DNA of 64,000 nucleotides from Nesterenkonia sp. E16_10 (lineage in GTDB: Bacteria; Actinomycetota; Actinomycetes; Actinomycetales; Micrococcaceae), in assembly GCF_017347085.1 (NCBI RefSeq), contig NZ_JADPSA010000022.1, positions 62,001 through 126,000 of the forward strand, read 5' to 3'. The notes beneath the pieces were generated by a model. The model saw only the letters and a program-made list of their open reading frames with translations. It made no database searches and had not been told where the DNA came from. This document shows, piece after piece, positions 6,842 to 53,406 of this stretch. How positions within the stretch are numbered: the stretch's first letter is position 1; each line of letters starts with the position of its first letter. Both the position numbers and the translations under genes were made by a program.

Positions 6842-6876
6842 TCTCAGAATAACCCTTCAGCTGGGCACCGCAGGGG

Positions 6877-7299: not shown

Positions 7300-7392
7300 G
7301 GGCACATCCTACTGCCAAGAATCCCTCGCAGAATTCGCATCCAGGACGGTTCCGGCAGGGGCCGCAGCGCCCGCTCCGAGGGAGGATCTCGG

Positions 7393-9494: not shown

Positions 9495-9497
9495 GCG

Positions 9498-10322
<825 letters not shown>

Positions 10323-10437
10323 GATCTGGTGTCCTCGCCGGGTCCGGGTGCGCAGCTCACGCCTCAAGCGTATGAGCTGCGTACCCGGACTGCCGACGGA
10401 AGCAGGACTGTTTCCTCTCAGAAGGGGATGCTAGAGG

Positions 10438-11466: not shown

Positions 11467-11743
11467 ATGGAGTTTCCTCTTCATCAAGGTGCCAGGGCGA
11501 CCTCGGTGCTGCGCCTCACCGCACCGAGGGGTGGAGAATTCCGGAGAGTCAGCACCGGGTCAACTGAGTCACGCCGCTGACCTCGTGCGATTCCACGTTT
11601 CACTCTAGGGGGCGCATTCTGCGCCCTCCAACCTGGAACAGGCCAGTTGGTCAACCTGTCACGCACTGTTAACACAGTGGTGTTCTTCCTGTGACGCAGA
11701 TTACATGATGAAGCGGGTCTGTCGCGCTGAGCAGGACCTCTTC
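11467..11743 (-). promoter_or_regulatory. Promoter region of phn operon
   Basis: The 277 bp between the HAD gene and phnD have no gene. Two structures stand out. One is the inverted repeat CACTGT-TAAC-ACAGTG at 11664-11679, flanked by near-repeated CTGTCACGCA/CTGTGACGCA. The other is the hairpin GGGCGCA-TTC-TGCGCCC at 11610-11626. The first is a candidate operator for a transcription factor. The second could be a leader hairpin or the HAD/phn insulator. No clear PhoP direct-repeat box was recognised. Confidence 0.45.
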
Positions 11744-20539: not shown

Positions 20540-20622
20540 GTCATTCTCGCTATCGCTACCGCCGGACCGCGTGATCCGCCGCGCGTCATTGCGCGAGCAT
20601 CCTGGGTCAGGTCCTGAATCAG

Positions 20623-20666
20623 AGCCGCCGCTTCCTCTGGTGCAAGGTGCTGAGGGAGCGGCGGCT
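20623..20666. terminator. Hairpin between AraC-type gene and MMPL gene
   Basis: AGCCGCCGCT (20623-20632) and AGCGGCGGCT (20657-20666) form a perfect 10-bp stem, extended by TCCTC/GAGGG pairing. TTTCTT follows on the plus strand. It lies 76 bp after the PAS-AraC gene stop and supports the shorter MMPL start. Confidence 0.6.
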
Positions 20667-20741
20667 TTCTTACCGGACAACTCTACTGCCCGGGTCGACA
20701 CGGAACACGTCGTCTCACCCCGGTCACGTGAGGGCGCGGCC

Positions 20742-21488
20742 TCAGTGGGTGCTCAGGCTCCCAAGCATGGCCTTGGTCTGGGCGGGCGCCCTGCCGAAGG
20801 TGCGCCGGTACGCGCGGCTGAAGGTCCCGACATCGTTGAACCCGCTGGAGAAGGCCGACTCGGCCACGCCGGCCCCCTGGGTCAGAAGCAGGTGACCCCG
20901 CTCGAGCCGGGCCCGGCGGATCTCCTGAGCCGGTGAGGTGTTCGCCTGCGCGAACAGGGTCTGCAGAGTTCGCAGCGAGACACCGGCCCGCACGGCCACG
21001 CGGTCGGGGGTCAGCGTCGGATCCTGGCAGTGAGACTCGATGTAGCTCCTGATCTCGGCGAAGCTGCGGCTGGACTCGGCGTCCAGCCGGGCCCCCGTCG
21101 AGACCGGCGACCCGGCGGAACCCCGGGACTGGCGCGGGGTGAAGGTGAGCAGCCTGTGGTCGGAGTCCTCGAGCGCCCGGAGCCTCCAGCGCACCCGCAG
21201 CGGGCGGCCGCGACGGTCGATGAACTCCTCCGCGTGGCTGTGGCTCACCGTTCCGGGAGCGGTCACGATCGGGCAGGCCTCCCGCGGGTAGGGCGACCCG
21301 TCGGCGTGGCGCGGGTGCAGCGCCTCGTGGCTGCAGCGGCCCACCAGCGTGCTGCCCTGGCTATAGCCGAGCACGGTGGCCGCGGCCTCGTTGACCAGTG
21401 CGACCGACCCGTCGGGCTCGATGAGCCAGAGCGGAGTGGGGGCTGCGTCAATGAGGGAGCGCAGGACTCCCTCGCCGTCGAAGGTCAT
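20742..21488 (-). CDS. PAS domain AraC-type regulator, divergent from cyanate operon
   Basis: About 248 aa from ATG at 21488; GGAAGGAG lies 12 nt upstream and abuts the alternative ATG at 21500, which makes that one unlikely. An N-terminal PAS-like sensor (LIDAAPTPLWLIEPDGS, VNEAAATVLGYS) is followed by an AraC/XylS DNA-binding domain (VAVRAGVSLRTLQTLFAQ, then FSSGFNDVGTFSRAYRRTFG). PAS-AraC fusions of this sort are uncommon. It is divergent from cynS with a gap of about 230 bp, so I infer it controls cyanate use, sensing cyanate, a related small molecule or redox state. Confidence 0.85.
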   Translation of the reverse strand: MTFDGEGVLRSLIDAAPTPLWLIEPDGSVALVNEAAATVLGYSQGSTLVGRCSHEALHPRHADGSPYPREACPIVTAPGTVSHSHAEEFIDRRGRPLRVRWRLRALEDSDHRLLTFTPRQSRGSAGSPVSTGARLDAESSRSFAEIRSYIESHCQDPTLTPDRVAVRAGVSLRTLQTLFAQANTSPAQEIRRARLERGHLLLTQGAGVAESAFSSGFNDVGTFSRAYRRTFGRAPAQTKAMLGSLSTH

Positions 21489-21719
21489 CGTGAAGAGCAT
21501 CTCCTTCCGGCGCCGGGACCGTTGTTCCACAATTTTAGGACCACGCTGTTTCCCTCAAGAGGCCCGAATATTTCAGCCGGGTTAAACCATTGCCGTTTGC
21601 GCGAATCGTCGGATGATCCGCGCAGATCGCCTTGTTGGCCGGTTCCGCACCGACCTAGGTTCGGAATCGCGCCGGGACCATTCCGGGCTGGCGCCGTCGA
21701 AACGAGGAGGACCAGACAC

Positions 21720-22172
21720 GTGGAGCCGTTCATCAGCAAGAGAGAAGCCGCCGAGCACATTCGGGTGGCCCGCCACCGGGCAGGAATCACCTGGGCGCAG
21801 ATTGCCGAACAGCTGGGGGTGGCCAAGGAATGGAGCACCGCCGCCCTGCTCGGCAGCCACCCCATGACCGCCGCCCAGGCCAGGTTGGTGCAGGAGCTGC
21901 TGAGCCTGGACGACACCGTCGCAGAGGCCCTGCAGATGCAGCCCTACCGGGGACCTCTGAGTGAGGACGTGCTGGCGGATCCGACCATCTATCGCTTTCA
22001 GGAGGCCGTCATGGTCTACGGCCCCACGATCAAGGAACTGATCCATGAGGAGTTCGGCGACGGGATCATGAGCGCCATCAACTTCCAGCTCGACGTCGCA
22101 CGCCGCACCGACCCCGAGGGAGACCGCGTCGTCGTGACCTTGGACGGCAAGTTCCTCGACTACAAGTGGTGA
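21720..22172 (+). CDS. cynS: Cyanate hydratase (cyanase)
   Basis: Cyanase converts cyanate and bicarbonate to ammonia and carbon dioxide. The 150-aa protein starts at GTG 21720 with GAGGAGG upstream; the frame upstream of that is non-coding. The catalytic triad of E. coli CynS (Arg96, Glu99, Ser122) corresponds to Arg92 in IYRFQE, Glu95 and Ser118 in FGDGIMSAI. The C-terminus GKFLDYKW is characteristic. It is the first gene of a four-gene operon with an ABC importer, giving cytosolic ammonia from external cyanate. No carbonic anhydrase gene is adjacent. Confidence 0.95.
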   Translation: MEPFISKREAAEHIRVARHRAGITWAQIAEQLGVAKEWSTAALLGSHPMTAAQARLVQELLSLDDTVAEALQMQPYRGPLSEDVLADPTIYRFQEAVMVYGPTIKELIHEEFGDGIMSAINFQLDVARRTDPEGDRVVVTLDGKFLDYKW

Positions 22173-23413
22173 CCGTGGGACACCGCCACCTCTCCCGGCG
22201 CAACCTGCTCGGCCTCGGCGGCGGGGCCCTCGGAGCGAGCCTGCTCGCCGGCTGCACCCCCACCGGGGGCGCCCCGAACACCAACCCGCTGGGAATCGAT
22301 TTCAGCGCGGCACTGGAGCCCGCCGGGGACCTTGAGGTCCGCGACGTCACGCTGGGCTTCGTGCCGATCACGTGTTCCTCCCCGATCATCAACGCCGCCG
22401 CGATGGGGATCTTCGAGCAGTATGGGCTCAATGTGACGCTGCAGCGCTACACCGGGTGGGGTGAGCTGTGGATCGCTTATGTCGCCGGAGAGCTCGACGC
22501 CACTCAGATGCTCAGCCCGATGCCGCTGGGCATCCATCACAACTTCGCCGCCGGTCAGCGGGATTCTCGGATGCCCTACATCACCAATATCAACGGGCAG
22601 GCGATCACGCTGGGCACCGCGCACATGGATCGGGTGCGCGGCGCGGAGGACTTCCGCGGCCTGACCATTGCGGTGCCCTTCGACTACTCCGGGCATAACC
22701 TGCTGCTGCGGGACTACCTCGCCCTGGGCGGTCTGGACCCGGACTACGACGTCGGCATCCAGGTGATGCGCCCCTCGGACATGGTCGCCTCGCTCAACGT
22801 CGGCGACATCGATGGCTTCCTCGCCCCGGATCCGTTCAACCAGCGCGCCGTCGCCCTCGGAGCCGGCTACCTGCACATGCTCTCCAAGGACCTCTGGGAC
22901 GGGCACCCCTGCTGCAGCTTCACCGTGGCCGATGAATTCGCCTCCGCGTATCCGAACACCTACACCACGCTGCTGCGAGCCATCGGAGACTCCGCCATGT
23001 GGACCGACAGGAAGGAGAATCGCGCCACCGCGGCAGAGACCATGGCGGGGCGGGCATTCCTCAGCCAGGACCCGGCGGTCATCGCTGCGGTGCTCACCGG
23101 CGAGTTCGAGGACGGCACAGGCGCCACCCAGTCCGTGGAAGACCGCATCGGCTTCCGCCCCTACCCCCACGAGTCCTACGCGATCTGGGCGCTGACCCAG
23201 CTCCAGCGCTGGGACCTCGCCCCCAGGGCCGGCTATGACTCCGCGGCGGACTACCAGTCTGCGGTGCGCCAGGTCCTGGACCCCGACGTCGCGACCCCGA
23301 TCCTGGAGGCGCTCGGCGCCGACACCACCCCACGGGAGACCGAGACCATCATCGGGCGCAGATTCGACCCGGCGGACCCATTGCCCTGGACCGAGAAACA
23401 GGTGAACCTATGA
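22166..23413 (+). CDS. Cyanate/nitrate-type ABC transporter binding lipoprotein
   Basis: A 415-aa solute-binding protein of the NrtA/CmpA/SsuA class. A Tat motif (SRRNLLG, residues 10-16) precedes a lipobox LLAGC with Cys30. The body has the typical PITCSSPIINAAAMGIFEQYGL and VAELDATQ-like segments. The start is one of GTG 22166 or 22169, overlapping the cynS stop, so the genes are translationally coupled. Linkage to cyanase makes cyanate the likely ligand, but nitrate, bicarbonate or sulfonate binders have the same fold. Confidence 0.88.
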   Translation: MVTVGHRHLSRRNLLGLGGGALGASLLAGCTPTGGAPNTNPLGIDFSAALEPAGDLEVRDVTLGFVPITCSSPIINAAAMGIFEQYGLNVTLQRYTGWGELWIAYVAGELDATQMLSPMPLGIHHNFAAGQRDSRMPYITNINGQAITLGTAHMDRVRGAEDFRGLTIAVPFDYSGHNLLLRDYLALGGLDPDYDVGIQVMRPSDMVASLNVGDIDGFLAPDPFNQRAVALGAGYLHMLSKDLWDGHPCCSFTVADEFASAYPNTYTTLLRAIGDSAMWTDRKENRATAAETMAGRAFLSQDPAVIAAVLTGEFEDGTGATQSVEDRIGFRPYPHESYAIWALTQLQRWDLAPRAGYDSAADYQSAVRQVLDPDVATPILEALGADTTPRETETIIGRRFDPADPLPWTEKQVNL

Positions 23414-24297
23414 GCACCCAGACCACTCAGCCCGCTGAGACCACCGACGCCACCGGTGCGGCGCAGCATCCGCACACCAACACCGCCCCGGAGGCGCTGC
23501 AGCGGCGGGCGAAGGCCCAGCGCACCCGGGACCGGATCCAGACCACCGGACTCTTCGTGATCTTCTTCCTCGGGTTCATCGGCATCTGGCACCTGGCCAC
23601 CGTGGGTCTCGACGACGGCGGCCTGGCCCCCACTCCCGGGGCCACCTGGGACCGACTGCTGGAGATGCTCGGCACGGCCTTCCTGCTGGATGGGCCCAAC
23701 AATGTGGGCATCTTCTACCACCTGCTCGCCTCCATCCAGCGGGTGCTCCTGGGCTTCGGCCTGGCCGCGCTCATCGCCGTCCCGCTGGGGCTGCTGCTGG
23801 GAACCTCGCGGGTGATCCACGATGGCATGGACCCGTTCATCCAGATCCTGCGCCCGGTCTCACCCCTGGCCTGGCTACCGCTGGGCCTGGCGCTGCTGCG
23901 GGATTCGCAGATGACCGCGATCTTCGTGATCTTCATGGCCGCGCTCTGGCCGATCCTGGTCTCGACCATCGACGGGGTGCGCCGGGTCAACCCGCTGTTC
24001 CTGGATCTGGCGAAATCCCTGGAGACCGACACCAGGACCCGGGTGTTCAAGGTGTTGCTCCCGGCCACGCTGCCCGCCATCGTGACGGGTCTGCGCACCG
24101 CGCTCTCCACGGCCTGGCTGGTGATCGTGGCGGCCGAGATGATCGTCGGCGGCCGCGGGATGGGGCACTTCGTCTGGAACGAATGGAACGCGCTGAACAC
24201 CCCCAGCATCGTGGTGGCGATCGTGATCATCGGCGGCGTCGGCTTCCTGCTGGACCGTTCGATCGCCCAGCTGCAGCGCCTGGTCCCGAAATCCTGA
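23410..24297 (+). CDS. Cyanate/nitrate-type ABC transporter permease
   Basis: A 295-aa permease of the NrtB/SsuC family with an N-terminal cytosolic tail of about 45 residues, roughly six helices and the ATPase-contact sequence AKSLETDTRTRVFKVLLPATLP. ATG overlaps the previous stop (ATGA), so it is coupled to the binding-protein gene. It forms the channel of the presumed cyanate importer. Confidence 0.9.
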   Translation: MSTQTTQPAETTDATGAAQHPHTNTAPEALQRRAKAQRTRDRIQTTGLFVIFFLGFIGIWHLATVGLDDGGLAPTPGATWDRLLEMLGTAFLLDGPNNVGIFYHLLASIQRVLLGFGLAALIAVPLGLLLGTSRVIHDGMDPFIQILRPVSPLAWLPLGLALLRDSQMTAIFVIFMAALWPILVSTIDGVRRVNPLFLDLAKSLETDTRTRVFKVLLPATLPAIVTGLRTALSTAWLVIVAAEMIVGGRGMGHFVWNEWNALNTPSIVVAIVIIGGVGFLLDRSIAQLQRLVPKS

Positions 24298-24372
24298 GCG
24301 TCCCTCCCGGGGCACCTGAGCCTGCGCCACCCACCCCTGAGACCCAAGCCTGAGAAACCAGGAGACACAGAC

Positions 24373-25185
24373 ATGACCGCCGAAACTCTGACCGCAGCGC
24401 ACACCAGCTCCGAACCGGTGGTGAAGCTCGAGGGCATCACCAAGGGGTTCCCCGATCGAAAGAAGGGCTTCCAGCGGATCGTCGGCACCACCGACGTCGA
24501 TATCGACGAAGGCGAGTTCATCACCATCATCGGCCCCTCGGGCTGTGGGAAGTCCACCATCCTGAAGATGATCGCCGGCCTGGAATCCGTCGATGAGGGC
24601 AGCATCTCACTGGCCGGGAGGCCGATCACCGCACCGAGCCGGGAACTGGGCATCGTGTTCCAGCAGCACGTGCTGCTGCCTTGGATGTCCGCCCGACAGA
24701 ACGTGATCTTCGCGCTGGAGACCGATCCGCACCAGAAGCGCAGCAAGCAGGAACTCGAGTCGCTGGCCGATGAATACCTGGAGCTGGTGAACCTCTCCCA
24801 CGCCGCAGACCGGCGGCCCACCCAGCTCTCCGGCGGCATGCAGCAACGCGTGGGAATCGCCCGGGCCTTCGCACTGGAGCCCAAGGTGATGCTGCTCGAC
24901 GAGCCTCTCGGCGCGCTGGATGCGCTCACCCGGCACGAGCTGCAGCTTCAGCTGCTGCAGCTGTGTGAACAGCAGAAGCGCACCTTCATCATGGTCACCC
25001 ACGACGTGGACGAGGCGCTGCTGCTCTCCGACCGGATTCTGGTGATGGGGGCCGGGCCGAATGCGCAGATCGTCCACGACATGAAGGTCCCGTTCCCCCG
25101 GCCGCGTGATGTGGAGAACCTGGAGCAGGACCCGAAGTATCACGAGCTGCGCAGCTTCCTGCTGAACTCGCTCACCGGGCACTGA
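24373..25185 (+). CDS. Cyanate/nitrate-type ABC transporter ATPase
   Basis: A 270-aa ATPase with Walker A GPSGCGKST (near residue 57), Q-loop FQQHVLLPW, signature LSGGMQQR, Walker B VMLLDEPLGALD and switch VTHDVDEAL. It is the NrtD/SsuB type without the extra binding domain of NrtC. A GGAGACAC ribosome site precedes the ATG. It lies 75 bp after the permease gene and closes the cyn operon. Confidence 0.93.
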   Translation: MTAETLTAAHTSSEPVVKLEGITKGFPDRKKGFQRIVGTTDVDIDEGEFITIIGPSGCGKSTILKMIAGLESVDEGSISLAGRPITAPSRELGIVFQQHVLLPWMSARQNVIFALETDPHQKRSKQELESLADEYLELVNLSHAADRRPTQLSGGMQQRVGIARAFALEPKVMLLDEPLGALDALTRHELQLQLLQLCEQQKRTFIMVTHDVDEALLLSDRILVMGAGPNAQIVHDMKVPFPRPRDVENLEQDPKYHELRSFLLNSLTGH

Positions 25186-25355: not shown

Positions 25356-25601
25356 ATGACCACCATCGCCGCCCACGCTGCCGCCGCTGAAGCCCCGACC
25401 CACCAGCGCACCTCGTTCCAGGCCCTCGCAGCCGCAGGTCTGCTGGCGCTCGCCGCCCTGGTCGTGATGGCCGGCAACGGCGCCCTGCTGGACTACGCCA
25501 CGGCTGGACTCACCTTGATCAACGGCCCGCTGATCGAGGGCCCGCTGCTGAACCTGGGCGACACGCTCACCGATCTGCAGATCGGCCAGTTCCAGCAGTA
25601 A
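25356..25601 (+). CDS. 81-aa membrane peptide at head of NRPS locus
   Basis: A small protein of no recognised family. ATG at 25356 has a strong AGAGGAG site. Residues 1-23 are Ala-rich and polar. Residues 24-45 form one hydrophobic helix (LAAAGLLALAALVVMAGNGALL). The rest is an Asn/Leu/Gly-rich tail with two similar halves (LTLINGPLIEG, LLNLGDTLTD) ending in QFQQ. Its stop codon is followed within 4 nt by a perfect hairpin and then, 69 bp on, by the NRPS. It could be a membrane partner, a resistance peptide or a separate transcript; I cannot assign a function. Confidence 0.65.
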   Translation: MTTIAAHAAAAEAPTHQRTSFQALAAAGLLALAALVVMAGNGALLDYATAGLTLINGPLIEGPLLNLGDTLTDLQIGQFQQ

Positions 25602-25670: not shown

Positions 25671-28600
25671 ATGGTCGACCCCGCGCTGCCCACATCTGAT
25701 TCCTCGTCTGGCTCACCTCTCGAGCTGACGCCGGCGCAGCGCGGCATCTGGTACGCCCAGCAGCTCGACCCGGAGAACGCGACCTATCAGATCGGCCAGT
25801 ACCTCGAACTGGACGGGGCTGTGGACACCAAGGTCATGAGCCTGGCCTGGACGAAGGTGATTCGGGACATCGATTCACTCTCCATGCGCTTCTCCGAGGA
25901 CGCCAAGGGCCCCCACGCCACGCTCCAGAGGCCCGCCCCTGAGGCGGATCTGCTCACGATCGTGGACCTCTCCGGAATCTCGGACTCCGAACAGGCCCGG
26001 GCGGAGGCACGTCGACGCATCGATCAGGAGATGGAGACGGCACGGGCGCTCGACTCCGCCGATCTCTGCGCCGCGGTGCTCTTCCGGCTACCCGAGGGCC
26101 GAAGCTGGCTGTTCCAGCGCGTCCACCACATCATGCTGGACGGCTACTCCGCGGTGATCGCGCTGCACTACCTCGCGCGCGTCTACTCCGCGCTCACTGC
26201 CCGCATCCCGAACGGCCTGGTCCGCGGCCCCGTGGCGAAGGTGCTCGCGAAGGTCGCCGCCCGGAAGGACTCCCCCTTCCCCAGTCATCAGGACCTGCTG
26301 ACCGATCTGCACGACTACACCACCTCCGATCAGCACACCGAGGACCAGGCGTTCTGGCAGACCCAGGTGCAGCGCGAGTCCTCGGTCGAGGGCCTGGAAG
26401 GCACGCCCAGCGGTCCGGCCCACCGGGTGGTCCGCGTGACCCTTCCGCTGGATCCGGCGCAGACGGATCTGCTCCGCGGACTCGGCCGGGATGTGCCGAA
26501 GACCCTTGTGGGCATCATCAGCATCTACCTCGCCCGAGTCACCGGCCAGGACCAGGTCTCGGTGGGACTGCCCGTGACCGCTCGCCGCGGACGGGTGGCG
26601 AAGTCGACGCCGTCGATGCTCTCCAACATCCTCCCGCTGCAGATGGACATCACCCCGAACGCCGAGATCACCGGGATCATCGGATCCGCCGGTGACACGG
26701 TCCGCGCCGCGGTGCGACACCAGCGCTTCCGGGTCGAGACCCTTCCCGGCGCCTCGGGCATGGCGGGACCCTCGGTGAACCTGCTGCCCGTGGTCGCGGA
26801 CCTGAAGTTCGGCAGCACCACGGGCAAGGTGCATATCCTCTCCACCGGCCCGGTGCACGATCTCTCCTTCGTGATCTCCGGGATCGACAGCCAGGCCGCC
26901 ACTCCGACCCTCCAGCTGGAGGGTGACGCGGAGCTGCACACCGTGGAGACGTTGCAGGAGCACGGTGAGCGCCTGCGTTCACTGATCACCACGGGGCTGA
27001 CCGCGGAGCCCGGCACCACGGTGGGGCAGCTCCCGCTCACCGCAGGTCCGGAGACCGCCGACCTGCTGAACCACGGCCAGGGTCCGGACCGCTCGATCAC
27101 CGCGGAGACCGCGCTGCAGGCCTTCGCCGCCGCGGCCGCTGCGCATCCCGAGGCGCTCGCCGTCGTGGCCGACGACGGATCCCTGGACTTCCGAACGCTC
27201 CATGCGGACTCCACACGTCTGGCCCACCACCTGCGTCACCGGGGAGTCGGACCGGGGCAGCTGGTGGCCGTGCGGATCGAGCGCAGCGTGAACCTGCCGC
27301 TGCTGGTGCTGGCCGTGCTCAAGTCGGGGGCCGCCTACGTGCCGCTGGACCCGGAGTACCCGATCGACCGGGTCAAGGGGATGATCGTCGATTCTGCCCC
27401 GGCGATGCTGCTCACCAGCCGGGCTCAGGCGGAGTCCGATCGAGCCGCCGGTGCCGACTGGGATCTGCCGACCATGGCGGTCGACGCCGATACCGAACAG
27501 TCCTGGCGCCGGGCGACCGAGGACCCCAGCACGCTTCCGCTGGTGTCCCAGCATGATCTCGCCTACGTGGTGTTCACCTCGGGCAGCACCGGGCGCCCCA
27601 AGGGAGTGGGTGTGGAGCGGCTCGCGCTGCGCAACCTGTTCCAGGAGCACCGGGATGAGCTCTTCGACCCCACCCAGGAGCGGCTCGGTCGGCGCGCCCG
27701 GGTCGCCCACACTGCCGGCCTGTCCTTCGACGCGGCCTGGGATCCGTTGCTGTGGCTCTTCGCCGGCCACGAGCTGCACATGGTCGGCGACGAGGACCGC
27801 CGTGACCCGCAGCGCCTGGCGCAGCTGCTCAGCGAGCGCGAGATCGACTCCATCGAGACCACTCCCTCCTTCGCGGAGGCGCTGCTGGGCACCGGACTCT
27901 TTGATGGCAGCGGCAGCTTCGCCGCAGGGAGCCACCCGAGTGTGATCGCCGTCGGCGGCGAGGAGGTGGGCCCCGACCTGTGGGACCGTCTGGCCGCGCT
28001 GGACGGAGTCCTCGCCGTGAACCTCTACGGACCCACCGAGACCACGGTGGACAGCCTGGTGGCGCCGATCACCGCAGACACCCAGCCGCACATCGGCGGA
28101 TCCGTGCGCAACAGTCGCCACTACATCCTGGACGGCGCGCTCCAGCCCGTCCCGCACCGCGCCGTGGGAGAGCTCTACCTCGCGGGCACCAACGTGGCCC
28201 GGGGCTATGTGGGGCAGCCGGGGATGAGCTCCGCCCGCTTCGTGGCGGATCCCTTCGCCGCCGATGGATCCCGGATGTACCGCACCGGAGATGTGGTCCG
28301 GCGTCGCAGCGATGGTTCGCTGCGCTTCCTGGGCCGGATGGACGATCAGGTGAAGATCCGCGGCTACCGGGTCGAGCTCAGCGAGATCGAAGCCGCCCTG
28401 CGGAGCCAGCCAGGGATCGCCCAGGCGGCGGCACTGATCCACGGGGAGGGACCCGCCGCCCGACTCACCGGATACGTCGCCGGCGCAGGAGCCGCGGGAG
28501 GCGACGCCGCCCCGGACGGCCACGCCATGCGGGATCAGCTTCGCGCGACGCTGCCGGACTATATGGTGCCCAGCGTCATCATGGTCTTAGACGGCTTCCC

Positions 28601-31600
28601 GCTGACCCCGAACGGCAAGCTCGATCGCAAGGCGCTGCCCAGCCCGCAGGCCACGGCCGCGGCAAGTTCACAGCGTCCCCGCACCGCCATGCAGCGGCGC
28701 GTGGCCGAGGCGTTCGCCGAGGTGCTGCACCTCGAGGTCGCAGGCATCGGAATGGACGAGGACTTCTTCGCCGCCGGGGGCCACTCTCTGCTGGCCACCG
28801 CGCTGGCCTCGGTGCTCTCCACCCCGGCCGAGTCTCACATCACGGTCAGGGACGTGTTCGAGCGTCCCACCGTGGCCGGCCTCGCGGAACGGCTCCAGCA
28901 GGGCGAATCGGCGGGCGGACCCGCCCCGCTGCACCGCATGGCGCACCCCGAGACGCTGCCGGTCTCACTGACCCAGCGCCGGCTCTGGTTCCTCAACCAG
29001 CTGGAACCGGCCTCCGCGGCCTACAACATCCCGGTGGTGCTGCGACTGAAGGGCCAGGTCGAGACCCAAGCCCTGCGTGACGCGTTCTCCGACGTCGCGG
29101 CCAAGCATGAGCCGCTGCGCACGGTGTTTCCGCTGCGCGAGGGGGAACCGGTGCAGGAGGTGCTCGACGGTGAGGCGGCACGACCCAGCTTCTTGGCGGT
29201 CTCTGTTCCGGCGGAGCGCGTCGATCACGTGGTGGCCCAGGAAGCCCGGCGCCCGTTCGACATCACGCGAGAGACCCCGCTGCGCGGGCTGCTGCTGAGC
29301 ACCTCCGCCACGGACCACACCCTGGTGGCCGTGATGCATCACATCGCCTCCGACGGCTGGTCGCTGCGGCCCTTCGCCCAGGACCTCTCTCGCGCCTACG
29401 CCGCCCGGGCCAGAGGCGAGCACCCCGACCTGGGTGAGCTCGCCATCGAATACAGCGACTTCAGCCTGTGGCAGCGCGAACACCTCGGCGATCCCGCCGA
29501 CGCCGGCAGTGAGGCACACCGCCAGGCGGAGTTCTGGCGGCGCGAACTCGAGGGCGCCCCCTCCGAGATCGCCCTGCCCCGAGACCGGGCACGAGGCGTC
29601 GCGTCGGAGGCGAACCTCGCCGCCGGTGTCCGGCAGCTCGACGCAGTGATCGATCCGGCCCAGCATGCTCGGCTGCGGCAGCTTGCCGCGGGCCACAGCG
29701 CCAGCCTGTTCATGGTGCTGCAGTCGGCTCTCGCCGTGACGCTGAAGCAGCACGGCGCCGGAGAGGACATCGTGGTGGGCACTCCGGTGGCCGGCCGCAG
29801 CGACCCAGCACTCGATGAACTGGTCGGGTTCTTCGTCAACACGCTCGTGCTGCGCACGCAGCTGCAGCAGGACCCGGAGCTGGGCGAGGTGCTGGACCGG
29901 GTGCGAGAGTCGAACACCCGGGCCTACGCCCATCAGGAACTGCCCTTCGATGCGGTGGTCGATGCGGTGAACCCTCCCCGCACCGCCGCGATGCACCCGA
30001 TCTTCCAGGTGATGCTCACCCTGCAGAACACCGAGCCCGCGAAGGTGGAGCTCGACGGCGTGGAGATCACGGTGCCCGCCCAGATGACCAGCGCCGGGGT
30101 CAAGACGGACCTGATGCTCGATGTCAGCGCACCTGCGGGCGATGCTGGACCGCTGCACCTCGCCCTGGCCTACGACGCGGCGCTGTTCTCTGCCGCGAGC
30201 GCCCAGCGCGTCCTGGACACGATGCTCCGCGGACTGCACACCATGGTCGAGGCCCCTCAGACGCGTCTCTCGGGTCTCACCGCTGTGGACGAGGACACCC
30301 GTGACTGGCTCGAACGGCACAGCATCGCGCCGACGCTTCCGAGCACCGGCACGATCCTGGACGCGCTCGAGCAGACCTCCCGGCACCACCCCGGCTCGGC
30401 TGCCCTGCAGGACTCCACCCGGTCCATGACCTTCGCGGAGCTGCTCGAGGGCGTGGAGACCATCGCTGCGAACCTGCACCATGCGGGGGTTCGCCCCGGT
30501 GACCCGGTGCTGCTAGCCCTGCCGCGCAGCGTCGAGGCGCTCAGCGCCCTGCTGGGCGTCATCCGCGCCGGGGCCATCGCGGTTCCCGTGGACGTGAGCT
30601 ACCCGGTCGGCAGGATCGCACAGATCGCTGCCAGCGCCGCACCCCGCGCCGCGATCCTGCTCGAGAGCCCAGATTTCGCCGAGCTGGACCAGACGCTGCT
30701 GGAGCACAATCCGGAGATCCTGCGTCTGCGGCCTGCGGAGCTCTCCCGTGCCTCCGGGGCCGAGGTGCCATCGGCGCCCGGACCTGAGGCTGCGGCGTAC
30801 CTGGTGCACACCTCCGGGACCACGGGCACCCCGAAGGGCGTGCAGGTGCCACATTCGGCATTGCGCAACGTCCTGGACCACCATCAGGACCGACTGATCG
30901 GCCCATGCCAGCAGAGGTGTGCGCCGGCGCTGCCGAAGATGCTGCACCTGAGCGGGCTGGGCTTCGACGCGGCCTGGGACCCGATCCTCTGGCTCGTCTC
31001 GGGAACCACCCTGCTGATCCCGGATGAGCAGCAGCGAGTGGACGCGGAGATCGTCGTCGGGCTGCTCGCCGGAACAGAGGCGCCCACCGCCTCCGAGGAT
31101 CAGGCGCCGAGCGGCTTGAGCTCGGAAGGGGTCGACGTGGTCGAGACCACGCCGTCCTACGCCCAGCAGCTTCTCGCGCTGGGGCTTCTGGAGGCTCTCG
31201 AGGCGCAGGATCAGACGCTGACCCTGGCGCTCGGCGGCGAGGCCGTCTCCGCGTCGCTCTGGCGAGCCGTGGCCGAGTCGCCCCGGCTCGAGGGCTGGAA
31301 CCTCTACGGTCCCAGCGAGTTCACCGTGGACTCGGTGCTGACCCCCATCACGGGGCTGGAACCCCATATCGGGCGGCCGATCCCCAACCTCACCGCCCGG
31401 GTGCTGGACGCCTCGCTGGCCCTGGTCCCGCCTGGGGTAGAAGGCGACCTGTACCTCTCCGGCATCTCGGAGGCACACGGCTATCGAGGACGCCCGGCGG
31501 AGACCGCCTCGGCGTTCGTCGCCGACCCCTGGACCGCCGGCGGACGGATGTACCGCACCGGAGACGTGGTGCGCCGCAGGCCGGACGGCACCCTGCAGTT

Positions 31601-34600
31601 CCTGCGCCGGGACGATGACCAGGTGAAGATCCGGGGGCACCGGATCGAGGTGGCCGAGGTGGAATCGGTCCTCGGAGCGCTGGAGGGCGTCGGGTCCGCC
31701 GTCGTGCGGGTCGTGACCCCCGGCGCCGCCGATACCGCGCAGCTCGCGGCCTGGCTGGTCACCTCGCGGGATGCCGAGGACATCCGGTCCGCCGCCTCCC
31801 GGCTGCTGCCGGAGTACATGGTCCCCACCCGGATCATCGGGGTCAGCGAGATCCCACTGACCTCCCACGGCAAGGTCGACGTCGCGGCGCTCCCGGAGCC
31901 CCAGGTCACCGGCGGTGCCAGGCAGCCCAAGACGGAACAGGAGCAGGCGGTCTGCGAGGTCATGGGCGAGGTGCTCGGAGCCTCGAACGTCGGGCTCGAC
32001 GACGACTTCTTCGCGCTCGGCGGGCACTCGCTGCTGGCGGTCTCGCTGGTCGGAAGGCTCGAACAGCAGCTCGGCATGTCGATTCCGCTGCGGACGGTCT
32101 TCGAGGCCGGGACTCCCGCCGAACTGCTGCGCGCCGCGGCACGCTCGGTGGAGCCTGCCCTCGAGGCGCCCTTGGAAGGCACGACCAGCTCCACCTCGAC
32201 GACACCGCTGAACGCGCCGGTGAGCACCCCGTTGAACACCCCACTGAAGACCTGGGTGAAGGAGCATCCCCGGGTCGACGATGCCGAACTGCCGCTGACC
32301 GCTGGTCAGTCCCGGCTGTGGTTCCTCAATCAGCTGGATCCCTCCTCCGCCGAGTACAACGTCGTGCTTCACGTCGAGCTGCGCGGAGACCTGGACGCCA
32401 CGGCGATGAGCGGGGCCATCGACGATCTGGTCGCCCGGCATGAGGTGCTGCGCACCCGCTTCCCGGCACAGGGCGCGGCACCAGAGTCCGCGCCGGGCAC
32501 ACCGGGCGCCGACGCCGAGTCACGACCGGTGCAGCTGGTGCATGAACCGAGGCCGGGGGTGCTCGGCAGCCAGCCGCTGGACATCTCCGCCGGGTTCGAC
32601 CTGAGCAAGGAACAGCCGCTGCGCGCTGCCCTGGTGCCGATCGATGATCACGAGACGGGTGAGGACTCCCGGGCCTGGCGCCTGGAACTGGTCCTGCACC
32701 ACATCGCCACCGACGGCGCCTCACTGGCACCTCTGGTGCGCGATCTCGCCGCCTCCTACACCGCACGGGCCTGCGGAGGCACTGCCCTGCGCCGCCCGCT
32801 TGCGGTGCAGTTCGGTGATGTCGCCCGCCGTGAAGCACACCTGCAGGAGCAGATCCGGCGTCGCGGCGAAGAGGACCCCGCGCTGCGGCGCTGGGTCCAG
32901 CGCCTGGACTCGGCACCCACCGAACTGGCGCTGCCCACGGATGGCGAACGTGCCCCGAGCGCCAGCCAGCCGGCCGGCATGCTCAGCTTCACCATTCCGG
33001 CGGAACTCGCCGCGAAGCTCAACACCCTCTCCGCCGCCCAGTCCGCCAGCAGCTTCCACGGCTGGCTCGCCGGGCTCGGCGGCTACCTGCGCCGGATCGG
33101 CGCCGGTGAGGACGTGGTCATCGGGTCCCCCTCGGCGGGTCGCACAGACCCGGATGTCGAGGACCTGATCGGCTTCTTCGTGAACACCCTGCCGCTGCGC
33201 CTGGACCTCTCCGATGAGTCGCTGAGCTTCGCCGGCGCGGTGCGGATGGCACGGCAGCAGACGCTGACCGCGCTCGAGGACGAACACGTGCCCTTCGAGC
33301 AGATCGTGGAACAGGTGCGACCGCAGCGCCAGCTCGGACGCCACCCGCTGTTCCAGACCATGCTCTCGGTGGAGCAGCCCACGGACCTCAGCCTGGAGCT
33401 GCCGAATGTGACGGCGACCCCGCTGGACCCCGGTACCACGGGCAGCGCCAAGGTGGACCTCTCGTTCACACTGCGCCCACGGCCCGGACAGGACGCGGCG
33501 GTGGATGCGGTGCTGGAGTTCAACGCCTCGCTGTTCTCCCAGCGCGCCGCCGACGCCCTGGTCCAGGGATGGATGCAGTTCCTCCACGAGGCCGGACAGG
33601 CCCCGGAGCGGCCGCTCATGGACGCTGAGCTCGCGGGGACCGCCACTGCGCTGAGCCCCTGGCCGGTCGACGCCGGTGCGACAGGGGCAGAACCGGTCAC
33701 CGTGCTCGAGGCCTTCGCCGAGGCCGTGCGCCGCCAGCCGGCCCAGCCGGCCCTGGTTGCGGCCGGGGCAAGCCTGAGCTTCAGCGAGCTCGACGAACGG
33801 GCCCGGGCCATCGCGGCGGGCCTCACCGCCCAGGGGATCGGACCGGGAGACGTGGTCGCGCTCTGCCTGCCGCGTTCGGTGGACACCGTGGCCGGGCTGC
33901 TCGGCAGCTGGCGGGCCGGCGCCGTCGCAATGCCGATCGACACCACGCTGCCGGAGGCGCGGGTGGCCGCAATGCTCACCGCGGCGACACCCGCTGTGGT
34001 GCTGCACGCAGACGAGGCGGACACCGGGGACTCCACGCGAACCTCGGCGCAGCTGGCTCGGGCTGCGGCCGAGCAGGCCGAGCTGGGCCCGCAGCGGCTG
34101 CATGGAATGGGCTCGCTGCTGGCGGCCTCCTCCGCGCTCGGAGGCCCCGCCTCTGAGCAGGACTCCCTCCCGGCCCCGGCGAGGCTCCGGGACCCGGCGT
34201 ATCTCATCTTCACCTCAGGGACCACGGGTGTGCCCAAGGGCGTGCAGGTGCCGCACCGCGCGCTGGGCCACCTGCTGATGTCCCACCGCGCCACGCTGAT
34301 GCCACAGGCTCAGCTGCAGCCGAAGCGGCTGGCACACACCACCGGGGTCGGCTTCGACGCCGCTATGGATCCGATCCTCTGGCTCGCCGACGGCCACGAG
34401 GTCCACCTGGTCGATGACACGACCCGGCGTGACCCGCAGGCCCTGGTGGGATATTTCCAGAAGCACCGGATCACCGCCTGGGAGACCACGCCGAGCTACG
34501 TCACGGCACTCACGGCCCACGCTGACCTGGGAGAACACCTCGACGCGAGCGGACCCGAGGATCCCTTCGTGCTGCTGCTCGGCGGGGAACCGGTGGACCC

Positions 34601-36377
34601 GGATCTGTGGGACTGGCTGCGTGAGCGCAGCGCCACCACCACCTCCTGGAACCTCTACGGACCCACCGAGGTGGGAGTGGATTCTCTGATCGCCGACCTC
34701 GCGGGTGACCCGCTCCCTGAACTGGGCGCTCCGACCTGCGGCTCGATCGCCTACGTGCTCGATGACCGGCTTCGCCCGGTCCCCGACGGTTCGGTGGGCG
34801 AGCTCTGGCTGGCCGGCGCGCAGCTGGCCGACGGCTACCGCGGCAGGTCCGCAGAGACCTCCAGCCGCTTCGTCGCTGATCCGTTCTCCACCACGGGGGC
34901 TCGGATGTACCGCACCGGCGACCTCGTCGTCGTCGAAGCCGGCCAGGACCGGACGCGTCCGCGCATCCGGTCCCTGGGACGGGCGGACAGCCAGGTGAAG
35001 ATCCGCGGCTACCGCGTGGAACCCGCCGAGGTGGAGTCGCTGCTGCGCGGGATGCCCGAGGTCTCCCAGGCCGTGGTGCGCCCACGCGCCCTGGAGCGCG
35101 GGACCGAGCTGATGGCCTGGGTGACCCTTGACTCCGCTCCGGAGTCCGAGGCAGCTCCGACGGCGGAGCTGCAGGCCGAGCTGATGCGTCGGCTCCGGGC
35201 CGCGCTGCCGGGCTATATGGTCCCGGCGGCGATCAGCGGTCTCGACGCGATCCCGCTGACCCCCAACGGCAAGGTCGATGATCGTGCGCTGCCGATGCCA
35301 GAGGCGTCCGGGGCAGATCGCACCGGCCGAGCACCGCAGAACCCTGCGGAGCAGGCCGTGGCCGCCGCCTTCTCGGATGTCCTGGGCGCCGCGGAGGTGA
35401 CGGCCGAGGACTCGTTCTTCGATCTGGGCGGTCACTCGTTCCTCGCCCAACCCGTGATCTCGGCGATCAACGCCGCGCTGGGCGCGGACCTGCCGGTCCA
35501 AGTGATTTTCCAGGCTCCGACCGTGGAAGGTCTGGCCGCCCTGGTGCAGTCCGGCGAGGCCGACGTGGCGCAGAGCCTGCGCGCGGTGCTTCCGCTGCGC
35601 CGCAACGGCACAGGCAGCCCGCTCTTCGCCGTACACCCGGGCAGCGGTCTGAGCTGGTCGTTCTCCTCACTGGTGACGCACCTGGACACCCGGCGGCCCA
35701 TCCTGGGCCTGCAGATGCCAGGCATCGCCGCGGATGAGCCCACGCCCGACGAGCCGGCCACGATGCACGAGCTGATCAGCCAGTACGTGGAGGTGATCCT
35801 CAGCGAACAGCCCGAGGGCCCGTTCCATCTGGTGGGCTGGTCCTTCGGCGGTCGGCTGGCCCATGCCATCGCGGCGGCGCTGCAGGAGCGCGGACACGAG
35901 GTGGGCACGCTCGCGGTGCTCGATGCCTACCCCGCTGAGGAATCCACGGCCGGGATCACCGATGACCAGAGCCTCTGGCGCGCGTTCCTCGGCGCCCAGG
36001 GTGTGCAGGCCCCGGCCGATGAGCGGCTCTCCGCGGGTCGTGCCCGGGCCCTGCTGGGTGAGGCCGGGAGTCCGCTGGCCTCGGTGCCGGAGGAGACGAT
36101 GCGGCGCAGCGCCACACGCTTCCGCACCATCGGGGGTCTCTTCGATCGCAGCCCGGTGCCGGTGTACCGCGGCGACCTGCACCTGGTGGAGGCCACGGTG
36201 GACGTCCCGGCGGACCGTCCTGCGCCCAGCGCCTGGGCGCCGCATGTCTCCGGAGAGGTCATCGTCGAACGTGCGGAGCTTCCGCACGAGCGGATGCTGG
36301 AGCCCGCCGGAGTCCGCGCGCTTGCCGCGGTGCTGCCTGCGCAGCTCACCGGGAGCGATGTCCCCGGCGGGTTGTAA
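25671..36377 (+). CDS. Trimodular non-ribosomal peptide synthetase, (C-A-T)x3-TE
   Basis: A 3568-aa assembly line. Condensation domains have intact HHxxxDG motifs near residues 151 (HHIMLDG), 1223 (HHIASDG) and 2343 (HHIATDG). Adenylation domains have the P-loop-like TSGSTG/TSGTTG at about 635, 1712 and 2847, and carrier-protein serines in GGHS lie at about 1039, 2120 and 3255. A C-terminal thioesterase has GWSFGG (Ser near 3391), LDAYP and ELPHE. No epimerase or methyltransferase domain is present. By manual alignment to GrsA the specificity codes are DADEAGLVDK, DADEAGLVDK and DADELGLVDK, so all modules should load the same residue; acidic positions 239, 278 and 331 hint at a basic side chain. 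The first C domain and the TE resemble EntF. It lies upstream of the MbtH gene. Confidence 0.95.
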
Positions 36378-36483
36378 AAAATTGCAGAAGACGACCATCT
36401 GATCACGGGCCGGTTACGAACTCCTCATGATGCCGCAAGAACCACTGCGGCGAGCGATGAGAAACCGACCCAGGAGTGCAGCG

Positions 36484-36693
36484 ATGACCAACCCCTTTGA
36501 CCGAGATGATGTGCAGTTCCGGGTAGTCATCAACGAGCTCGGCCAGCATTCGCTCTGGCCCGAGTTCGCCGATGTCCCCAGCGGCTGGGTGGCGGTCTTC
36601 GGGTCCGCCGCCCGCCAGGACTGCCTCGACTACGTCGAAGAGCACTGGGCGGACATCACCCCGGTGTTCGAGCGCGACCTGGCCGTGTCTTGA
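36484..36693 (+). CDS. mbtH: MbtH-family NRPS chaperone
   Basis: A 69-aa protein, the usual family length, starting at ATG 36484 with AGGAG upstream. The conserved pattern is complete: NPFDRDD, then INELGQHSLWPEFADVPSGW and CLDYVEEHWADITP. MbtH proteins bind adenylation domains and are needed for solubility or activity of many actinobacterial NRPSs. It follows the NRPS by 106 bp and overlaps the exporter ATPase by 4 bp. Confidence 0.96.
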   Translation: MTNPFDRDDVQFRVVINELGQHSLWPEFADVPSGWVAVFGSAARQDCLDYVEEHWADITPVFERDLAVS

Positions 36694-37730
36694 TCTCGCT
36701 GCAGTCGATCACCAAGAGCTTCGGCAAGTTCCAGGCCCTGGCCGGCGTGGACCTGGAGGTCCCGGCGGGCACCGTCCAAGGACTGCTCGGACCCAACGGC
36801 GCGGGCAAGACGACGACGGTGCGCGTGCTGACCACGCTGCTGGAGCCCGACGGCGGTGACGCGTTCATCGCCGGGCACAGCGTGCGCACCGAGGGTGACG
36901 CCGCGCGCAGGAGCCTCGGGGTCTCCGGACAGTACGCCGCAGTGGACGATAAGCTCACCGGGCTCGAGAACCTCACCCTGGTCGGTCAGCTCTACGGCAT
37001 GCGCCGCAAGGCCGCGAAGGCACGGGCGCATGAGCTGCTGGAGCATTTTCGGCTCGACGGCGTGCCCAAGGGTCAGCGTGCTGGTTCGTACTCCGGAGGG
37101 ATGCGGCGTCGACTCGATCTCGCCGGCGCGCTGGTGGCACGGCCTCCTGTGGTGATCCTCGACGAGCCCACCACAGGGCTCGATCCCCGCGGCCGCCGCG
37201 ACACCTGGGACGCCATCTCGGCACTCGCCGATGACGGCACCGCCGTGCTGCTGACCACCCAGTACCTCGAGGAGGCCGACGAGCTTGCGGACTCCATCGC
37301 GGTGATCGACGGCGGTCGCATCGTGGCCGAAGGCACCCCCGCGACGCTGAAGGCCCAGGCCGGCGGCGCTCGACTCGACATGAGCTTCGAACGCCCCGGC
37401 ACGGTTCCGGCGGCTCGCGCCGCACTGAGCTCGATCGGCCTGGAGGTCAGCGCCGATGACTCCGCCCTGCGGCTCAGCGCGACCGCGCCCGGGCGGCAGG
37501 AGAGCCTGCGCGCGGCACTGGCCGCGCTGCGCGAGGCCGAGATCGAGGTCATCGAGGCCTCGCTGCGGCAGCCCACGCTGGACGACGTCTTCCTGCAGAT
37601 CACCCAGAAGCCCGCGGGAGTCCGCTCGGGTCAGGACTCTGCTGAGGACCCGGCTGTGTCACCGACCGAGGCGCCTGCCGAGGACCCGGTCCCCGACAAC
37701 GCCGCCGCCCGAGAGGAGGTCCGCTCATGA
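36690..37730 (+). CDS. DrrA-like ABC exporter ATPase
   Basis: A 346-aa ATPase of the daunorubicin-resistance (DrrA) type. Walker A GPNGAGKTT (near residue 33), signature YSGGMRRRL, Walker B VVILDEPTTGLD and switch LLTTQYLEEADEL are intact, and the family C-terminal domain is followed by an acidic Pro/Glu-rich tail. It begins with TTG inside the mbtH stop (TTGA), a start that limits translation. With the next gene it should export the NRPS product and give self-protection. Confidence 0.92.
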   Translation: MISLQSITKSFGKFQALAGVDLEVPAGTVQGLLGPNGAGKTTTVRVLTTLLEPDGGDAFIAGHSVRTEGDAARRSLGVSGQYAAVDDKLTGLENLTLVGQLYGMRRKAAKARAHELLEHFRLDGVPKGQRAGSYSGGMRRRLDLAGALVARPPVVILDEPTTGLDPRGRRDTWDAISALADDGTAVLLTTQYLEEADELADSIAVIDGGRIVAEGTPATLKAQAGGARLDMSFERPGTVPAARAALSSIGLEVSADDSALRLSATAPGRQESLRAALAALREAEIEVIEASLRQPTLDDVFLQITQKPAGVRSGQDSAEDPAVSPTEAPAEDPVPDNAAAREEVRS

Positions 37731-38524
37731 GTGTGATCACCGCAGTGCGCGATGGCGGAATCATCGCGCGCAGGAACTTCACCAATGTTCGACGGACCCC
37801 GGGAGCCCTGGTCACCGGTGTGGCGCAGCCGATCATCTTCGTGCTGATCATGGCCTTCGTCTTCGGCGGGGCTCTGGGCGGAGCTGACTACCGGGAGTTC
37901 CTGATCGGCGGGCTGCTCGCGCAGACGCTGACGTTCAACTCCTCCTTCACCGCGGTCTACCTGGCCAAGGATCTGCACCAGGGGATCGTGGACCGATTCC
38001 GGGTGCTGCCGATGTCGCGGGTCGGTGTCGTGCTGGGACGCACCTGGTCCGACCTGATCACCAGCGTGATCTCCACGGTGGTGCTGGTGCTCTGCGGACT
38101 GGCGATCGGCTGGCGGGCCACCACCGATCCGCTCACGATCACCCTGACCTTCCTGCTGCTGCTGCTCTACGCCTTCGCCATCGCCTGGGTGGGGGCCGTC
38201 GTCGCACTGACCGCGCGCAGCGTGGAGGTGGCGCAGAGCCTCGGGCTGCTCTGGCTGTTCCCGGTCTGCTTCATCTCCGGCGCCTTCGTCTCAGCGGACA
38301 CGCTGCCGGGTCCGCTGCGTGGGATCGCGGAGTGGAATCCGGTCACCGCGATCGCCACCGCGGCCCGACAAGGCTTCGGCAACACCGCCCCGGCGCAGTT
38401 CGAGGTGGCCGGAGGCTGGCCGGCGGAGAACGCCGCGCTCTACGCCACGCTGTGCTGCCTGAGCATCATCGCCATCTTCGCCCCGATCGCGGTGACCCAG
38501 TACCGGCGCATCAGCCGGCGATGA
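37727..38524 (+). CDS. DrrB-like ABC exporter permease
   Basis: A 265-aa ABC-2 type permease with six hydrophobic segments and the family sequences RRTPGALVTGVAQPIIFVLI near the start and LGLLWLFPVCFISGAFVS in the C-terminal half. ATG overlaps the stop of the ATPase gene by 4 bp. It forms the membrane half of the exporter for the peptide product. Confidence 0.92.
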   Translation: MSVITAVRDGGIIARRNFTNVRRTPGALVTGVAQPIIFVLIMAFVFGGALGGADYREFLIGGLLAQTLTFNSSFTAVYLAKDLHQGIVDRFRVLPMSRVGVVLGRTWSDLITSVISTVVLVLCGLAIGWRATTDPLTITLTFLLLLLYAFAIAWVGAVVALTARSVEVAQSLGLLWLFPVCFISGAFVSADTLPGPLRGIAEWNPVTAIATAARQGFGNTAPAQFEVAGGWPAENAALYATLCCLSIIAIFAPIAVTQYRRISRR

Positions 38525-53315: not shown

Positions 53316-53333
53316 AGGGGGAATCCGCAGCGG

Positions 53334-53406
53334 TGGAGCTAAGGGGAGTCGAACCCCTGACCTCGTCGATGCGAACGACGCGCTCTACCAGCTGAGCTAT
53401 AGCCCC
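53334..53406 (-). tRNA. tRNA-Ala (anticodon CGC)
   Basis: 73 nt folding as a full cloverleaf. The acceptor GGGGCTA pairs with TAGCTCC and discriminator A, the D arm is GCTC...GAGC, and the anticodon stem CGTCG/CGACG holds loop TTCGCAT (anticodon CGC, reads GCG). The T arm AGGGG-TTCGACT-CCCCT is perfect. The 3' CCA is not encoded (CCG follows). Its 3' end faces the polyol cassette and has a scar copy at 44949. Confidence 0.96.

Follow-up and report, generated by a model that had tools for sequence, protein, structure and literature searches.

What does a nonribosomal peptide synthetase (NRPS) of Nesterenkonia sp. E16_10 make with three almost identical adenylation pockets, and which of its neighbouring genes belong with it? 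We looked at this locus in a stretch of 64,000 nucleotides, called the window below, in which the NRPS and its domains are laid out as follows.

25671..36377, + strand: NRPS, 3568 aa, C-A-T-C-A-T-C-A-T-TE (ORF translation and Pfam)
25698..27065, + strand: C1, predicted starter-type condensation domain, HHIMLDG (matches to solved structures; active-site motif)
27081..28703, + strand: A1, DADEAGLVDK by plain mapping, DAWEAGLVDK if gap-corrected (code alignments)
start 28776, + strand: T1 GGHS motif (motif and Pfam)
28953..30302, + strand: C2, HHIASDG (Pfam stretch aa 1095-1544; nearest solved chains 5u89 and PCP-C didomains)
30348..31952, + strand: A2, code identical to that of A1 (code alignments)
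31944..32132, + strand: T2 carrier domain (Pfam and motif)
32286..33638, + strand: C3, HHIATDG (active-site motif)
33666..35360, + strand: A3, DADELGLVDK by plain mapping, DAMELGLVDK if aligned as A1 and A2 (code alignments)
start 35427, + strand: T3 GGHS motif (motif and Pfam)
35619..36323, + strand: thioesterase, GWSFGG (PF00975, 2.3e-25; nearest solved chain 7crn, 6.1e-37, then the EntF TE)

In the protein, Pfam found Condensation, AMP-binding, AMP-binding_C and PP-binding stretches three times each and a single Thioesterase; it thus has the C-A-T modules, HHxxxDG motifs, A core motifs, GGHS carriers and TE of a type I linear NRPS. No fourth Condensation-type stretch was detected by Pfam, in agreement with a preliminary description of this DNA that had denied the presence of an E domain. 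The three near-identical pockets that it had pointed out were also found, with the motifs FDAAWDP in A1 and A2 and FDAAMDP in A3, and ETTPS and LYGP...VDS in all three. When the columns were mapped plainly, the codes proposed there were reproduced (DADEAGLVDK for A1 and A2, DADELGLVDK for A3), and the same alignment read E. coli EntF as DVWHFSLVDK, its established code. Position 239 of the proposed codes is probably wrong, however, since most profile alignments place W, W and M there and not Asp. In these domains, the segment running from FD up to the following Gly lacks one residue relative to typical A domains. For A1, four HMMER alignments spanned this short segment, three of which (with GrsA 1AMU, 5u89 and 6ea3) gave W239 and D240 while the fourth, with EntF, retained D at 239, as did a MAFFT alignment including EntF. 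A profile HMM made from 19 further A domains gave W at 239 for A1 and A2 and placed a different gap in A3. Position 239 is therefore likely W in A1 and A2 and, by homology, M in A3, which makes DAWEAGLVDK, DAWEAGLVDK and DAMELGLVDK the likely codes, the alignments disagreeing on 239. As the Asp is probably an alignment artefact, the earlier suggestion of a possibly basic substrate is weakened. Even without the correction, the pocket has slightly more positions in common with Gln/Glu codes (6-7 of 10 identical) than with those of Orn or Lys (5 of 10), Leu giving 5-6; the margin is small. No published match to the adenylation codes was found in the literature searched.

The pocket likeness was then followed across homologues, in a set of 37 complete proteins that includes the window's own (each exceeds 3200 aa and has all three codes in full; the split NRPS frames of G217, G056, G304, G280 and G326 were left out, as was G131, whose A3 match is in two pieces). 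D235, A236, E278, G301 and K517 are invariant in every A domain of the set, position 331 is D everywhere except for one A1 with N, and one pocket type is kept in all modules of all 37 proteins. Within the window protein, A1, A2 and A3 share 40-43% identity, and in a tree of the 37 proteins each forms one clade (support 1.0, 0.99 and 1.0, respectively). Since three separate, old clades all retain one pocket type, the likeness exceeds chance, and by tree and pocket A1, A2 and A3 are old, diverged paralogues. These comparisons give good support to a single substrate for all three modules, so that the NRPS probably joins three copies of one amino acid; it is this part of the earlier homo-oligopeptide proposal that stands, its "basic" identity being the weak one. 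It is unlikely that the modules take different amino acids despite their similar pockets. Such a reading could call on A3, which in the window differs from A1 and A2 at position 299 (also at 239, should the gap correction be right) and which varies between W, M and L at 239 across homologues. Yet this difference is not retained, since A3 has the code DADEAGLVDK in 19 of the 37 proteins and W at 239 in 20 of 36 (the survey of 239 covered the 36 of 38 proteins longer than 3200 aa that fitted a regular expression, G131 included; G295 and G142 failed in A2).

Concerning the start of the product, the solved chains nearest to C1 were the C domain of CDA peptide synthetase I (2.5e-47) and the 7c1k group, with EntF far lower (1.6e-25). 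The CDA domain and the 7c1k group (rhizomide RzmA) are starter C domains. Judged by its nearest solved chains, C1 thus most resembles starter (acylating) condensation domains, and this resemblance makes an N-acylated tripeptide likelier than an uncapped one. Neither this resemblance nor the conserved peptide gene upstream had been picked up in the preliminary description. Lipopeptide NRPSs with starter condensation domains (CDA, 7c1k group) have the same starter-type domain before A-T and the same terminal TE; unlike them, the window's NRPS has three modules with one pocket and a conserved micropeptide upstream, and no acyl-activating gene was seen among its scanned neighbours.

EntF is found among the matches of C1, of the A domains and of the TE, as would be expected from a catecholate siderophore synthetase of the EntF/DhbF type. 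We consider this very unlikely. The TE is similar to those of EntF/DhbF, but the likeness of C1 and the A domains is distant and the pocket is not a Ser code. The best match to a DHB-AMP ligase in the genome scored 187.8 bits against a cut-off of 723.55, in a protein that fits acyl-CoA ligases, and the best isochorismate synthase, possibly a menaquinone enzyme, was borderline at 220.5-221 bits against 224.75. With both below cut-off genome-wide, the siderophore reading was set aside on score, and neither a siderophore uptake gene nor a DHB gene was present among the scanned neighbours. A comparison is offered by Rothia mucilaginosa, a relative of the host's family. Its enterobactin cluster is reported to have DHB and Ser as its predicted substrates, together with EntE/EntB fusion homology (Uranga 2020, PMC7190385); the window cassette differs, as neither a DHB/Ser prediction nor EntE/EntB fusion homology was seen in it.

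The NRPS is flanked by the following features.

25356..25601, + strand: micropeptide ORF, 81 aa, with a hydrophobic N-terminal segment and the core LINGPLIEGPLLNLGDTLTDLQIGQFQQ, which ends at the stop codon
25604..25634, + strand: strong hairpin, rich in GC, lying after the peptide stop and before the NRPS start (folding z against shuffles)
36427..36693, + strand: MbtH-like protein, 88 aa (PF03621, 1.8e-26)
36690..37730, + strand: ABC exporter ATPase, DrrA-type (TIGR01188, 315.5 bits, cut-off 312.45)
37727..38524, + strand: ABC-2 exporter permease, DrrB-like (PF01061, 2.5e-29)

Compared with DrrA/DrrB exporters, the ATPase lies just over its cut-off and the permease under that of TIGR01247 (77.2 against 223.05); the permease is 72-78% identical in 11 loci from other families (best of three queries). 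The common gene order is peptide, NRPS, MbtH, ABC ATPase and ABC permease, and this cassette was found in five families of one order. Of the 31 family stretches, 30 have MbtH, 27 the ATPase and 15 the permease; among the 12 order-level stretches, MbtH and the ATPase are in all and the permease is in 11. The missing cases fall in stretches or contigs that end early. In the order-level loci, neighbours were checked for these three genes and an upstream trio only. The trio (class-III aminotransferase, aldehyde dehydrogenase and PucR-type regulator) was excluded from the cassette, since it is upstream in 10 of the 31 family stretches only and was found in neither the window's nor the order-level stretches.

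The micropeptide gene lies directly upstream of the NRPS in all 30 loci that were found through C1 or the NRPS and include upstream DNA, and in all 42 loci with a peptide the two are adjacent on the same strand. Of 395 family genomes, 31 bear the NRPS, and an HMM of the peptide matched 30 of these and no others, with no copy apart from the NRPS; in the remaining one (G045), the locus begins at a contig end. The model was built from 28 rows whose genomes are among the 395, and the lack of a match in the other 365 does not follow from how it was built (N. cremea L017 stands in for G005, the two being apparently one assembly). Among 396 genomes of the order, it gave 16 new matches, 12 of which end in GQFQ with the NRPS adjoining in every case; as these 12 loci were found through the peptide, only their NRPS counts as independent evidence. 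Two of the four weak matches were examined, G414 and G514 (the others being G626 and G447), and had no cassette. The observations thus cover the order of genes and of domains, the conserved pockets, and a peptide that is conserved and co-occurs with the NRPS.

In the window, the micropeptide ends in GQFQQ, and an AGAGGAG Shine-Dalgarno sequence precedes its ORF. Neither Pfam nor NCBIfam gave a family at a useful E, no confident fold was obtained with AlphaFold2, and the only literature match to the motif was a cone-snail study, by its subject unrelated. The gene is apparently undescribed and strongly conserved. In a six-frame reading of 1.08 Mb, GQFQ(Q) followed by a stop occurred 42 times, once per locus and nowhere else, although the 42 peptides were chosen by the GQFQ pattern, so that their common ending is in part a product of the selection. 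Most of the conservation lies in roughly the last 30 residues, up to the stop codon. Pooled pN/pS was 0.20 for the last 30 codons against 0.51 for the remainder (21 pairs with shared members, order-level loci contributing their last 33-36 codons only; G531/G640 stood out at 0.83 and G738/G620 had no synonymous change), indicating that the core is under purifying selection. A hydrophobic N-terminal segment is present in 36 of the 42 peptides and absent in six. By a rough rule, 31 have a signal-peptide-like N-terminus, G009 and G028 among these resembling membrane segments.

More distant homologues were looked for with C1 at class level, where 379 genomes were searched and E 1e-45 was passed by 20, one of them the window's own. 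Six of the other 19 were examined; four, picked because they had a frame of about 3500 aa, bear the cassette and the remaining two are different NRPSs. These four, and a plasmid of Streptomyces anulatus NBC 01759 (NZ_CP109126.1, 93401-105966), retain NRPS, MbtH and exporter, and the GQFQ peptide is in none of the five, a possible diverged small ORF being seen in two. This argues that the peptide is not required for the chemistry everywhere. On the plasmid, the NRPS (3487 aa, 38% identical to the window's) is followed by MbtH, ATPase and permease and has pockets of the same type; it differs from the window in the N at 331 of A1 and in the absence of a GQFQ peptide within the 30 kb examined. In 394 class genomes, an HMM of the peptide core matched the window's genome alone, apart from four matches at E 0.003-0.009 to the repeat part only. 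Saprospiraceae L018 and proteobacterial L019 gave weak matches (25-27% identity).

How the micropeptide acts can be read in several ways. It is possible, though we think it doubtful, that the small ORF is a cis-acting leader whose nascent chain senses substrate, product or secretion state in the ribosome tunnel and so controls read-through into the NRPS, the released peptide itself having no function. Its fixed place upstream on the same strand, the lack of copies apart from the NRPS among the 395 family genomes, a conserved part that ends at the stop codon and an N-terminus ranging from none to a signal peptide would all suit a leader, although a signal-peptide-like N-terminus in as many as 31 peptides speaks against it. 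The hairpin is ambiguous: the 75 nt after the window's peptide stop gave z = -3.24 (60 shuffles), and across the 42 loci z was below -2 in 18 but -1 or higher in 15. From the last GPL-type motif to the peptide end there are 19 residues in 21 of the 42 peptides, a spacing that suits a leader and counts against a dedicated partner. In the others, the distance is 18 (12 peptides), 17 (five), 16 (one), 22 (one) or 26 (two), and 11 of the 42 have an extra final Gln, so that the register is not fixed over the whole set; the distances were scripted, and eight of those other than 19 were recounted by eye, a nearer motif having been caught.

Peptide-first operon order and a hairpin also recall lantibiotic operons, and with the strict co-occurrence in the family and the invariant C-terminus they would fit a conjugate, in which the micropeptide would be a precursor peptide to which the product of the NRPS becomes attached. 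A precursor-like peptide is indeed linked to the NRPS in 30 of the 30 NRPS-found loci, which alone is no proof of a RiPP. We hold this conjugate to be distinctly unlikely: only Gly, Gln and Phe are invariant in the 36 aligned cores, with no invariant Ser, Thr, Lys or Cys, neither a ligase gene nor a known RiPP enzyme is found among the genes common to the loci, and the five distant homologues do without the GQFQ peptide.

We favour, with a probability of roughly 0.52, a five-gene cassette for the synthesis and export of an N-acylated tripeptide built from a single amino acid, with the upstream peptide as its dedicated partner. The first residue would be capped by C1 with an acyl group taken from primary metabolism, and modules 1-3, assisted by MbtH, would put in the same L-amino acid once each; the TE would release the product and the DrrA/DrrB-type exporter would pump it out. 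The micropeptide would be directed to the membrane or secreted in most lineages, possibly made in excess of the NRPS, and it and the NRPS product may be physical partners. About as tentatively as the leader, a two-part system may be imagined, in which a mostly membrane-directed micropeptide with an invariant GQFQ end acts together with an acyl homotripeptide, be it as a carrier, a co-product, a signal or a conjugate. To our knowledge, and within a limited literature search, no pairing of a micropeptide with an NRPS-made acyl homotripeptide has been described.

This analysis brings to light a micropeptide family for which Pfam and NCBIfam have no model. The three adenylation domains, far diverged yet keeping a single pocket, provide a natural case on which substrate-code rules can be tested, among them how a code should be read when an A domain lacks one residue ahead of position 239. 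A functional pairing would tie ribosomal to non-ribosomal peptide synthesis within one small cassette.

The genome containing the window is 3.3 Mb in size, and in one named-genome scan Nesterenkonia cremea gave the only close match, with the best segment of the NRPS being 80% identical. The window contains the following features:

8463-11487, minus strand: phosphonate-type ABC importer genes (PhnE, PhnC and phosphonate-binding protein)
18257-21530, minus strand: MMPL-family transporter adjoining a PAS-domain regulator of the AraC type
22166-25185, plus strand: nitrate/sulfonate-type ABC importer, immediately 5' of the companion peptide gene
25356-25601, plus strand: companion peptide ORF of 81 aa with a clear Shine-Dalgarno, between importer and NRPS
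25671-36377, plus strand: NRPS of 3568 aa, C-A-T-C-A-T-C-A-T-TE
53332-53406, minus strand: tRNA-Ala, anticodon CGC

Downstream of the NRPS lie MbtH, a DrrA-type ATPase and an ABC-2 permease, in this order. The pocket motifs quoted in the preliminary description for the three A domains (A1 to A3) were all found in the NRPS. Codes were then taken from homologues in Micrococcaceae genomes, the family being that of the host's named relative, and in other families of the same order. Each of the 37 complete proteins with three A domains, including the one from the window, had one pocket type in all three modules, and by plain mapping the code varied at positions 299, 322 and 330 only, plus 331 once. 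A1, A2 and A3 formed three separate clades of 37 each (support 1.0, 0.99 and 1.0) and were 40-43% identical to one another inside the window protein, so they are not recent copies of each other. That three diverged A domains retain a single pocket strongly supports the proposal of one substrate for all modules.

Plain mapping reproduced the codes first reported, DADEAGLVDK (A1), DADEAGLVDK (A2) and DADELGLVDK (A3); EntF mapped in the same way gives DVWHFSLVDK. In these A domains, one residue is missing from the stretch that follows FD. Four HMMER alignments of A1 span it: those to GrsA, 5u89 and 6ea3 give W239 and D240, whereas the one to EntF leaves D at 239. An HMM from 19 other A domains gave W239 in A1 and A2 and put the gap elsewhere in A3, and a MAFFT alignment retained D at 239. 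Residue 239 is likely W, W and M in A1, A2 and A3, and the reported codes probably err there. Among the proteins longer than 3200 aa, 36 of 38 matched the pattern and were tallied: this position was always W in A1 and A2, and W (20), M (9) or L (7) in A3.

With W at 239, the pocket loses one of the acidic residues behind the earlier suggestion of a possibly basic substrate. Uncorrected, it is closest to Gln/Glu: against reference codes, Gln/Glu types share 6-7 of 10 positions, Leu 5-6, and Orn, Lys and Ser 5, a small margin. No amino-acid-modifying gene common to the loci was found among the neighbours compared, so the substrate is likely an amino acid from primary metabolism. Just upstream of the peptide, 10 of the 31 family stretches carry a class III aminotransferase, an aldehyde dehydrogenase and a PucR-type regulator (e.g. 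4049-8473 of stretch L064), perhaps for GABA catabolism; class III aminotransferases of this kind also include diaminobutyrate enzymes. This trio was not found in the window or in the order-level stretches.

The best matches of C1 were starter-type C domains (CDA C domain, 2.5e-47; the 7c1k group second), with EntF much lower at 1.6e-25, and those of C2 were internal C domains. The domain order bears out the reported lack of an E domain. The starter-like C1 and the missing E domain therefore lead us to predict N-acyl-L-X-L-X-L-X, with release by the TE. The cap is unlikely to be a catechol, since the genome's top DHB-AMP ligase match scored 187.8 bits (cut-off 723.55) and the top match for isochorismate synthase fell slightly under the cut-off for that enzyme. 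In genome G640 (locus L113) the NRPS frame is just 3311 aa, with about 100 aa remaining C-terminal to A3, and its TE may be absent or out of frame. The NRPS frame is split in five homologues (loci L085, L086, L087, L088 and L059 of genomes G217, G056, G304, G280 and G326), by either assembly error or decay; all five retain an intact peptide ORF.

The peptide had no Pfam or NCBIfam family at a useful E-value. Its ORF lies immediately 5' of the NRPS in all 30 NRPS-found loci with upstream DNA. Against 395 family genomes, the peptide HMM matched 30, the same 30 as carry the NRPS; a 31st NRPS genome, which starts at a contig end, was not among them. Against 396 order genomes it gave 21 matches, namely 5 already known, 12 new, all with a GQFQ end and an adjoining NRPS, and 4 weak, two of which were examined and lacked the cassette (peptide, NRPS, mbtH, ABC ATPase and permease). 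The 42 peptides end in GQFQ (31) or GQFQQ (11), and in a six-frame reading of 1.08 Mb this pattern before a stop turned up a single time in each locus and at no other place. The importer at 22166-25185 falls outside the cassette, as only one other locus (genome G019) shares its substrate-binding and permease genes.

Further afield, a Streptomyces anulatus plasmid and four class-level genomes also combine an NRPS of this pocket type with MbtH, ATPase and permease, but none of these five loci has the GQFQ end. In L153 (about 3422-3622 on the NRPS strand, ...IFIGNYQINH) and L152 (about 3290-3352, ...LTIGDINIF), a small ORF whose end is faintly similar occupies the corresponding place, and these two ORFs are possible diverged relatives; in the other three no peptide-like ORF was seen upstream of the NRPS. 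As defined here, the peptide is known from one order only, perhaps with diverged relatives outside. Among the matches listed in open-licence literature (titles and abstract starts on Nesterenkonia siderophores or nonribosomal peptides, the codes, the peptide motif and related themes), none described the cassette, nor did the parts seen of PMC13347742, PMC11078813 and PMC7190385; a term search of PMC10668837 gave no match.

The peptide core runs from GPL-type repeats through a linker to the GQFQ end. Pooled pN/pS was 0.20 in the last 30 codons versus 0.51 elsewhere (21 overlapping pairs). The ORF might instead be a cis-acting leader, which we regard as a serious alternative, since it is always in cis, its N-terminus varies freely, hairpins often follow its stop (strong, z < -2, in 18 of 42 loci, hence not universal) and one register is common to half of the loci. 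The distance from last repeat to peptide end, scripted and recounted by eye in eight cases, is 19 residues in 21 peptides, 18 in 12, 17 in 5, 16 in 1, 22 in 1 and 26 in 2. However, this register to the stop codon differs between lineages, and most copies have targeting segments: the N-terminus is hydrophobic in 36 of 42 peptides, 31 of them flagged signal-peptide-like, and 6 lack it. Families f8 and f13 of the order, with four loci between them, encode only a 33-mer. Because of the targeting segments and the shifting register, we favour a dedicated partner that would work at or outside the membrane. The NRPS side would most likely be conventional, a homotripeptide with an acyl cap being made and then exported.
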